Source: Maritalea porphyrae (GTDB lineage: Bacteria > Pseudomonadota > Alphaproteobacteria > Rhizobiales > Devosiaceae). Taken from it: a stretch of DNA of 64,000 bases. The notes under the pieces are model-generated. The model was not told where the DNA came from. It was given only the letters and a program-made list of their open reading frames with translations, and made no database searches. Made by a program: the position numbers and the translations under genes. The stretch is from positions 310,001-374,000 of the forward strand of contig NZ_JAPWGX010000003.1 of assembly GCF_027213965.1 (NCBI RefSeq), in the 5' to 3' direction. This document shows positions 51,825 through 53,907 of the stretch, piece after piece (the first letter of the stretch is position 1; the number at the start of each line of letters is the position of its first letter).

Positions 51825-51898
51825 GCGGGTATAGCACAATGGTAGTGCAGCAGCCTTCCAAGCTGAATATGCGAGTTCGATTCTCGCTACCCGCTCCA
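51825..51898 (+). tRNA. tRNA-Gly (anticodon TCC)
   Basis: A 74-base gene including CCA. The acceptor arm is GCGGGTA/TACCCGC with discriminator T; the anticodon loop CTTCCAA gives TCC; the T loop has AGTTCGATTCT. It lies 30 bases after tRNA-Tyr and is probably cotranscribed with it. Confidence 0.97.
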
Positions 51899-52101
51899 TT
51901 TACCTTTTTCAATATGTTTAAATTTCACAAGTGATCGCCTAGATTTCGTACAGTTTTCTTTGGCGGCTGGTGTGCGTTTGACCCTTTCATTCATTTGTGA
52001 ACTAATGACTTTTGCGCCAATTGCTGGTGCAAGGCTGTGATTTGCTTCGCATTTTGGAAGTAGAAACGCGTTACTTGTGTGTTTTTGGGAGCGTACTTTA
52101 A

Positions 52102-53502
52102 GTGTTGGAACATGATCGTCACGCAGCCCTTGAAGTTATGGACCGTATTCTGTCCATTTCCACAAAACTCACTAAATCTGAACGGCTGGCACTTGTTAGC
52201 CATCCGAGTGCTACTGAGAATTGCGAAGAAGAAGTGGGGCTGCATTTGCGGAACGATGGAACTTTTAGCCAAGCGGCTTCGGCGCAAGGCAAATATGGGG
52301 AGAATTTTGTTTCAGACTATGCAATTGCCGCATGTTTTTTTGCGCGATTTGACGAATCCATCACGCCCGCAGAACTTGATTTGTTGAAAAACCTGTTGTG
52401 TGGCGCCAGTTTGCGTCGAGCAAGCCAAGACGACGGTCGATCCTATCAAACGAAACGCAACCAATTGGCCGCTTTGCGCTCGAAAGCGCAAGTTAGTTCA
52501 CAGGCCGAGCTTTTGCAGATTGTTTCTGTCTTGCTGACGAGTTTGGTGAATTCAGGACAAGACAGCGCTGAAGATCCTGTGTCGCGTCTCAAGTCACTGC
52601 TTGATCAATATTATCAACCCCACGCCCGATTGCACCGTACAACATTCGAAAGCGGGCGAGAGCTATTGGTTGCGGACTTAGGACCGCTGGATGGGCTGCC
52701 TTGTTTTTTGATGCACCCAAGTGTCGAGCCTCTGGTGCCATTGCCCAATCGGGCGGATTTCTTAGAAAGTGCGAACATTCGTGTACTCATCCCACTACGT
52801 CCAGGTTTTTTTGGCCGACCATTGGATAAGACACATCCAGAGATGTCGTTAAGCGATTTTGTGGATGATTGTTTTATGTTTTTGACCTCTTTTGGTCTAA
52901 CAAGTTTGCCTATTGTCTCGATTACAGCTGGTGGAATGTCAGCGATGTTGTTGGCCGACCGGCTAGGTGAAAGCTGCGAGCAGCTTTTAATGTGCTCTCC
53001 GCAATATTTTGCGCGTTCACCTCGACCCGCAAAATCATCATATTCCGGGCATTGGGCGCAGTTGATTGGCCGCTTTCAGTGGCTTTTGTTTCCTGTATTT
53101 AACACGCTTGCTCCGCTGTTGTTAAATGAGGAATTCGCGCGAAAAATTTGGTTGAAGACTTATGAGAACAGTCCGGACGACATCAAGCATGTATTGTCGA
53201 TTGTTAGGTCAGATTGGGCACCAGACTTTGCACGTGCAATGATCGATTGCAATTTAGGCGGCGTGGAAGCCGATTTGCTTGTGATGGCAGGCGATTGGGT
53301 GGACAGCCTTGGGGCGCTGAAGTGTCGGACAATGGTGTATTATGGAGAGACTGACCCATTCTCTGACCATGAATACACAAAAGGCCGCCTTGAAGCTGTA
53401 GGTGTTGAGGTTAGAATTGTGCCAGGATTTGGCCAAAATTCATTTCTCAACCGACCCGATGTCTTGTTCGACCACTTGGCGGGTCATTCGCCAATTGTTT
53501 AG
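52102..53502 (+). CDS. HTH-type regulator fused to an inactive-looking alpha/beta-hydrolase domain
   Basis: The 466-residue protein has a LuxR-like helix-turn-helix at about 91-144: ELDLLKNLLCGASLRRASQ followed by QLAALRSKAQVSSQAELLQIV matches the 'G-x-S-x-x-e-I-A ... K-x-x-v-x-s-q-x-e-L' pattern. Residues about 180-466 are an alpha/beta-hydrolase fold (CFLMHPSVEPLVPL strand, VLIPLRPGFFGRP, VYYGETDPFSD). The nucleophile position is Thr275 in SITAGG instead of Ser in GxSxGG, and the position of the catalytic histidine is Gln445 in PGFGQN; only Asp418 remains. Family knowledge suggests such domains can bind ligands without hydrolysis. A sensor-regulator role is inference. GTG start at 52102, ten bases after GGAG. 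Confidence 0.72.
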   Translation: MLEHDRHAALEVMDRILSISTKLTKSERLALVSHPSATENCEEEVGLHLRNDGTFSQAASAQGKYGENFVSDYAIAACFFARFDESITPAELDLLKNLLCGASLRRASQDDGRSYQTKRNQLAALRSKAQVSSQAELLQIVSVLLTSLVNSGQDSAEDPVSRLKSLLDQYYQPHARLHRTTFESGRELLVADLGPLDGLPCFLMHPSVEPLVPLPNRADFLESANIRVLIPLRPGFFGRPLDKTHPEMSLSDFVDDCFMFLTSFGLTSLPIVSITAGGMSAMLLADRLGESCEQLLMCSPQYFARSPRPAKSSYSGHWAQLIGRFQWLLFPVFNTLAPLLLNEEFARKIWLKTYENSPDDIKHVLSIVRSDWAPDFARAMIDCNLGGVEADLLVMAGDWVDSLGALKCRTMVYYGETDPFSDHEYTKGRLEAVGVEVRIVPGFGQNSFLNRPDVLFDHLAGHSPIV

Positions 53503-53530
53503 TCAATACAGTTGGCCCGGATCGAGTAAT

Positions 53531-53566
53531 TGGTGGGGAAGGCAAATGCCACCCCGCACCAGTTTT
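53531..53566. terminator. Possible terminator between convergent genes
   Basis: TGGTGGGG (53531-53538) can pair, with a small bulge, with CCCCGCACCA (53552-53561), enclosing an inner GGCA/TGCC pair, followed by GTTTTC on the plus strand. It lies between the HTH-hydrolase gene and the convergent cysteine-rich gene. Confidence 0.45.
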
Positions 53567-53580
53567 CATATGAATTGCGA

Positions 53581-53907
53581 TTAGCGTTTGAATGTTAAAA
53601 CGGTGTTGGAGCCGAATTTGGTTTTGGCGAACCCTTTGCTACGTTTCGCATTCTCTTCAGTTGAACAGGGGGCGTCTTTGTCTACTGGCTTTTTGTCACA
53701 AGTGGTTGTCGTGCCTCCATGTGAACAGCTGTAGGTCTTTTTCCCATTTTTGGTTTTACCTCCGTCCAACATGCAGTTTTCGAACAATTGACCGTTATCA
53801 AAGGTGATTTCTGGTGGTTCGTTGTCCGCTGCCTGCGCAATTGAGCCTGCAGACATAGAAAGTGCGAAGCCTAAAACGATGGCTAAGAGTGTGTTTTTGA
53901 TGTTCAT
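53581..53907 (-). CDS. Small cysteine-rich exported protein
   Basis: The 108-residue protein has a signal peptide (about 1-27, ending AQAAD) and a mature part with four cysteines (FENCML, YSCSH, TTCDK, APCSTE), spaced so that two disulfides are likely. No domain is recognised. It is expected in the periplasm. The upstream interval 53908-54124 has no other gene that I can support. Confidence 0.65.
   Translation of the reverse strand: MNIKNTLLAIVLGFALSMSAGSIAQAADNEPPEITFDNGQLFENCMLDGGKTKNGKKTYSCSHGGTTTTCDKKPVDKDAPCSTEENAKRSKGFAKTKFGSNTVLTFKR

Follow-up and report, generated by a model that had tools for sequence, protein, structure and literature searches.

A LuxR-type helix-turn-helix joined to a substituted alpha/beta-hydrolase fold in Maritalea porphyrae: a candidate one-component regulator and its alphaproteobacterial relatives

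What role can be assigned to a bacterial protein in which a putative DNA-binding segment is joined to a hydrolase fold with two of its three catalytic residues replaced? This question is raised by a 466-residue reading frame in a 64,000-nucleotide stretch of a Maritalea porphyrae contig, the whole of which is referred to here as the window. A first-pass annotation had described a LuxR-like helix-turn-helix (HTH) followed by a hydrolase domain whose triad positions are held by Thr275, Asp418 and Gln445, and had suggested that the protein may be a regulator using a pseudoenzyme domain to sense a small molecule. Our analysis of the gene, its homologs and their surroundings leads us to regard the protein as probably a one-component regulator that senses through an alpha/beta-hydrolase fold devoid of catalysis, somewhat like the plant receptor GID1.

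Domain layout and triad positions of the window protein

The frame of the HTH-hydrolase gene is intact, and GC content around it lies between 46 and 53% with no step at the gene (Table 1). AlphaFold run on the single 466-residue sequence gave an unusable model (pLDDT 38.4, pTM 0.23). A Pfam scan of the window protein alone listed no HTH family, GerE included, found no autoinducer-binding domain (PF03472), and returned no family at its gathering score; Abhydrolase_6 reached 22.8 bits in comparison to a gathering cut-off of 26.3.

Table 1. Features of the HTH-hydrolase locus, in window positions
Feature	Position	Strand	Basis or remark
tRNA-Gly(TCC), left neighbour of the gene	51825..51898	+	context
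CDS, 466 aa, HTH and substituted alpha/beta hydrolase	52102..53502	+	GTG start; TAG stop 53500-53502; ORF calls and family searches
Predicted LuxR/NarL-type HTH, residues ~84-146	52351..52539	+	20-segment profile vs RcsB/VraR/GerE/NarL DNA-binding domains
Predicted alpha/beta-hydrolase domain, residues ~170-466, edges approximate	52609..53499	+	profiles; Pfam score below cut-off
His205 codon, His-Pro here	52714..52716	+	invariant in 8/8 clade members; presumably the His-Gly position of the oxyanion loop
Thr275 codon ACA, nucleophile position	52924..52926	+	family and profile alignments
Asp418 codon GAC, acid position	53353..53355	+	D in 49/62 members
Gln445 codon CAA, catalytic-His position	53434..53436	+	Q in 29/62 members; invariant in 8/8 clade members
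108-aa ORF	53581-53907	-

A profile built from 20 HTH segments of the family, with that of the window protein placed first, matched 41 different solved sequences of the PDB at E<=0.001. Almost all of them are LuxR-type DNA-binding domains, and they include RcsB (6e-9), VraR, GerE, NarL and FixJ. The top row of this search was a designed repeat protein, which we read as summed short matches and set aside. Among family members, Pfam GerE was found in 5 of the 17 scanned and in none of the 8 members of the window's clade at E<=0.01, indicating that the HTH of this clade has diverged. Glu91 and Thr117 are invariant in 17/17 sequences of the family alignment. The prediction of a GerE-type HTH in the window protein is well supported by these profile matches, and the LuxR-like segment first proposed at residues 91-144 was recovered as an HTH of the LuxR type.

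For the C-terminal part, a 17-member hydrolase profile matched 340 solved sequences at E<=0.001, the best 60 of which were all of the alpha/beta-hydrolase type by name or family, and a profile of eight clade members matched 42 solved sequences. In the three alignments printed for the eight-sequence profile against solved hydrolases, the column of Thr275 meets the elbow serine and the column of Gln445 meets the histidine of a Gly-His pair; the 17-sequence profile likewise places Ser and His at these two columns, and the triad was assigned in the same way from the family alignment (n=17). A profile of six relatives with an intact Ser-Asp-His triad placed its serine on Thr275, in an alignment that stops before position 445. 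The elbow, acid and histidine positions of an alpha/beta-hydrolase fold thus occur in order by profile, with the single-sequence Pfam score below its cut-off.

The window protein retains the acid residue of serine hydrolases (Asp418), carries Thr275 where a catalytic Ser, Cys or Asp would stand at the elbow, and has Gln445 at the position of the catalytic His. A scan for the pattern small-x-Ser-x-small found Ser56 only, which lies outside the hydrolase domain, and allowing Cys or Asp at the central position added Asp375 alone within the domain. Loss of the canonical triad is therefore well supported at the level of sequence: the codons and several alignments agree with the first-pass placement of the three residues, and the hydrolase domain holds no other serine elbow around which an intact triad could be built.

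Triad states across the family and conservation of Gln445

Genome and plasmid searches gathered 62 HTH-hydrolase proteins, consisting of 8 plasmid-record proteins, all from Alphaproteobacteria, and 54 from genomes of the window's class, which substantiates the earlier statement that such fusions exist in alphaproteobacteria. Duplicates, hydrolases that lack an HTH and partial or frameshifted members (such as the G183 and G032 proteins and one from the pair on G229:C152) were left out of this set, the near-identical rows L045/L046/L047, L093/L094 and L106/L112 were kept uncollapsed, and few candidates were scored per genome, so that the family counts represent a sample.

Alignment of the triad positions across these 62 homologs, a check suggested at first reading, showed that a broken triad is the commonest state of the family and that Gln is the commonest replacement of the catalytic His. 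The His column contained Q in 29 members, H in 22, E in 4, Y in 2 and F, L, D, S and R once each, and the acid column contained D in 49, S in 7, N in 4, C in 1 and H in 1. The nucleophile column was the most mixed, with S in 13, G in 12, D in 10, M in 7, three each of F, V, T and A, two each of L and N, and single occurrences of Y, I, Q and R. Ser was kept in only 1 of the 29 Gln members, in which this position held M (7), G (5), F (3), V (3), T (3), L (2) or A (2), the remaining four having Y, S, I and R. Where His is retained (22 members), the nucleophile position holds Ser in 7 and Asp in 10. An intact Ser-Asp-His triad was present in 7 of 62, and the family domain is thus not always dead.

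Several further features of the family were observed. The ten proteins (10/62) that combine an Asp nucleophile with a retained His (L041, L062, L063, L064, L067, L045-L047, L089 and L108) have Ser (6), Asp (3) or Asn (1) as the acid residue; Asp nucleophiles occur in dehalogenases and epoxide hydrolases. A small subgroup (L068, L093, L094 and L110) combines a retained Ser with replacement of His by Glu or Asp. Tandem pairs of family members occur at G229:C152, G229:C258, G543:C16, G122:C44 and G314:C42, and perhaps reflect receptor duplication. Two plasmid members have transposase neighbours that hint at mobility, as the Pseudosulfitobacter protein (L110 4783-7429) adjoins Mu-type transposase and TniB genes and the Martelella protein (L112 2568-5531) adjoins a Tn3 transposase.

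The closest homologs found were L002 (36% identity, genome G047), with T/D/Q at the triad positions, and L105 (34% identity over 96%), with G/D/Q. The latter is the Maritalea myrionectae plasmid protein WP_117397135.1, which has the same size as the window protein and the same Asp and Gln, differs by its Gly at the nucleophile position, and is annotated as an alpha/beta hydrolase. The window protein, L002 and L105 form one clade with a support of 1.000 (FastTree). A wider group of nine members, all with Gln, was recovered at a node support of 0.589, and the node joining these nine to six of the seven intact members had a support of 0.938. Locus-level searches of genome contigs (by protein and by two-sequence alignment) and of viral contigs confirmed no relative.

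Gln occupies the His position in 3/3 of the closest proteins, 8/8 of the clade alignment and 9/9 of the wider group. When eight of the nine were aligned, 24 of the 569 columns were invariant; these include Gln445 as well as His205 and Gly277 of the former active site. The nucleophile position in the three closest proteins is T, T and G, so that no role is demonstrated for Thr as such. As judged from these alignments, the residue under constraint is Gln445 and not Thr275. Conservation of Gln445 together with a variable nucleophile argues against decay of the domain and against a simple covalent mechanism shared by its members.

Two other functions can be weighed on this evidence. The hydrolase fold could be a protein-protein module for dimerisation or partner binding instead of a small-molecule receptor, as a loss of catalysis requires only that the fold be retained, and the presence of an HTH-only paralog in the same genome (described below) indicates that the HTH may be able to act on its own. 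The invariance of Gln445, His205 and Gly277 at the former active site is, however, more than a surface role would call for, and we consider this function unlikely. Alternatively, the domain may still be an enzyme of altered chemistry, in which Thr275 or another group would act with Gln445 and Asp418, either in a non-standard reaction or in slow turnover of a ligand, and the HTH would couple the reaction to transcription. The conservation of Asp418 and Gln445 is what would be expected of a working site, and the members with a full triad or with an Asp nucleophile and His suggest that enzymatic relatives may exist; against this, the His is missing from the triad position of the window protein and the nucleophile varies among the 29 Gln members in a way that misfits a shared covalent mechanism, which makes retained catalysis quite improbable here.

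Genomic locus and neighbouring genes

The gene is located between tRNA-Tyr and tRNA-Gly genes on one side and, on the other, the 108-residue ORF on the opposite strand, followed by a gene for a GGDEF protein with a weak CHASE4 match. Methylase, tRNA-Tyr, tRNA-Gly and GGDEF genes occur together in G001, G002, G003 and G005 without the HTH-hydrolase gene. Other small ORFs take its place in G005, while G003, with a methylase 92% identical, has about 1.6 kb less between the methylase and GGDEF genes. In G004, which is 83% complete, these two genes are on separate contigs. No close homolog of the window gene was found in the five congeneric genomes searched, of which G002 and G005 possess HTH-hydrolase members of other clades. 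This distribution is more simply read as a gain of the gene by this lineage.

In comparison to G003, the window (51825-53580) has approximately 1.6 kb present just after tRNA-Gly, with no visible repeats. A search for att-like repeats around the gene found none, the one 17-nt pair having both copies inside the gene. The 108-residue ORF is secreted-looking, contains cysteines and has no Pfam match, and its region is kept at the same place in G003. A promoter scan gave 1 site against 1.9 expected and terminator-like sites numbered 6 against 3.0 expected, both uninformative counts, and PADLOC returned no match.

A decaying, recently acquired gene, losing residues neutrally as it turns into a pseudogene, would agree with the lack of a close homolog in the five congeneric genomes (G004 being 83% complete), with an accessory position beside tRNA-Gly and with homologs as distant as 34-36%, but the frame is intact and the change of His to Gln is common to those homologs and to the wider group, and we rejected this very improbable reading on conservation.

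Neighbours were surveyed across the family from crude ORF calls, taken as the longest non-overlapping ORFs. ORFs of at least 800 residues accounted for 10 of 96 adjacent and 5 of 152 more distant ORFs, a contrast that is weak by itself. In a Pfam scan of adjacent genes the autotransporter beta-domain was the most frequent family (7/70), and the TbpB beta-barrel was found in 2/70. Among 107 genes three or four places off, autotransporters were not among the 25 families listed with at least two members, whereas RTX repeats occurred in 4. The 70 genes scanned were 69 of the 96 adjacent ORFs plus an annotated Maritalea gene replacing a spurious ORF; the 27 adjacent ORFs omitted were 19 of fewer than 200 residues (the spurious one included), the window's own two neighbours and 6 longer ones (212-587 residues) dropped for no sound reason, which leaves the 70 short of a clean sample. 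The control scan covered 107 of the 152 ORFs, all of at least 203 residues. The annotated Maritalea gene showed no PF03797 in the Pfam scan, its domain being found by genome search, and it stands outside the seven. Recounted by position over the genomes covered by the PF03797 search, the domain occurred in 7 of 80 adjacent ORFs (5 loci) in comparison to 0 of 99 control ORFs; a Fisher value of 0.007 applies to 7/70 versus 1/107.

Measured by distance, for 60 members (partial members and that of G183 included) in 45 genomes or records, 9 of 122 autotransporter matches (7 loci) lay at most 5 kb from a member where 0.77 would be expected, as did 4 of 12 SlipAM matches where 0.09 would be expected. 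Relatedness among the genomes is ignored in these counts, one genus supplies two of the four SlipAM loci, and the contrast is with an expectation from position or distance and not with ordinary LuxR regulators. Removal of the plasmid records left 6 autotransporter loci against 0.44 expected and 3 SlipAM matches against 0.09. Overall, an autotransporter or Slam (SlipAM) gene was present within 5 kb at 11 of 60 loci and neither was present at 49, the window locus included.

The Maritalea myrionectae homolog adjoins an autotransporter gene and a gene for an autoinducer-binding regulator. No surface gene adjoins the window gene, and a search of its genome gave no PF03797 match. One SlipAM gene was found in this genome, on contig C22, where it clusters with a TbpB-like gene and a 143-residue HTH-only ORF (L073 9011-9442; G000 contig C22, ~199010). 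This HTH-only paralog shares 41% identity with the window protein across 111 residues and lies about 1 kb downstream of the SlipAM gene and 2.4 kb downstream of the TbpB-like one. Two genes for autoinducer-binding LuxR-type proteins are located farther up, and a tRNA-Ser gene follows the paralog some 0.2 kb downstream. The recognition-helix regions of the paralog (SYETRRNQL) and of the window protein (SYQTKRNQL) are similar. Family context, as opposed to the window locus, suggests that surface-display genes (autotransporters and Slam/TbpB-like lipoproteins) may be among the targets of these proteins, and the C22 Slam/TbpB-like cluster is a possible target in this genome.

Proposed mechanism and comparison with known systems

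For the one-component regulator that we favour, the N-terminal LuxR/NarL-type HTH would be combined with a C-terminal hydrolase fold that has presumably lost serine-hydrolase chemistry through replacement of Ser by Thr275 and of His by Gln445. The former active site would bind a small hydrolase-type ligand (an ester, lactone or acyl compound) without turnover, held by Gln445 and Asp418 among other contacts, and ligand binding would alter dimerisation or DNA binding. The type of HTH, the hydrolase fold, the replaced triad, the retention of Gln and the breadth of the family are read from sequence. Of these, the consistent Gln at the His position strengthens the pseudoenzyme part of the first-pass proposal, for which we infer small-molecule sensing, DNA binding, the absence of hydrolysis and any direction of regulation. 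That proposal thus receives partial support and is extended here from one protein to a family.

One-component regulators and pseudoenzyme receptors are both known kinds of protein, and plants possess a non-catalytic receptor of the alpha/beta-hydrolase type in GID1. The window protein resembles LuxR/NarL regulators with a GerE-type HTH by its profile matches to RcsB, VraR, GerE and NarL, but it has no autoinducer-binding, receiver or PAS match in Pfam, its HTH is N-terminal to the sensor, and that sensor is a hydrolase fold. It shares this fold by profile with pimeloyl-ACP esterase, arylesterase and related hydrolases (9wlv, 3t4u, 5h3h), with which the elbow and His positions align, and it differs from them by the changes of Ser to Thr and of His to Gln and by its fusion to an HTH. 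According to the available parts of the source, the gibberellin receptor GID1 has likewise lost the catalytic His and kept the fold, a functional comparison that implies no membership; unlike the window protein, it is described there as a plant protein that keeps Ser and Asp in contact with the hormone, signals via DELLA proteins and has no DNA-binding domain of its own (PMC3531792). RcgR of rhizobial plasmids is an alphaproteobacterial alpha/beta-hydrolase protein in plasmid-transfer control, but the accessible text reports a hydrolase domain only and no HTH, and this description sets it apart from the window protein (PMC9601222).

In the accessible portions of the open-access literature we found no account of a protein from these bacteria that joins a LuxR-type HTH to an alpha/beta hydrolase, which is weak evidence of novelty; the parts available of PMC4992315, PMC2447327, PMC9601222, PMC13136126, PMC3531792, PMC3466318 and PMC4338825 describe no such fusion. 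In plasmid records the proteins are annotated plainly as "alpha/beta hydrolase" in 3 of 5 of one match set and in most of the 31 of another (26 of the 31 being one species), an annotation that would hide a regulator.

In summary, we put forward tentatively, as a doubtful proposal, that these proteins constitute a broad and apparently undescribed alphaproteobacterial family of one-component receptors. An alpha/beta-hydrolase fold that is mostly a pseudoenzyme, with replacement of His by Gln as its most frequent outcome, would drive the LuxR-type HTH, and part of the family would control surface display in response to hydrolase-type ligands, as a bacterial counterpart of the route from enzyme to receptor taken by GID1. 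The linkage to autotransporter and Slam genes provides a testable guess on the targets of part of the family. If the proposal is true, the family would offer a tractable enzyme-to-receptor series, some members of which possess the full triad, and may be a source of ligand-responsive switches.
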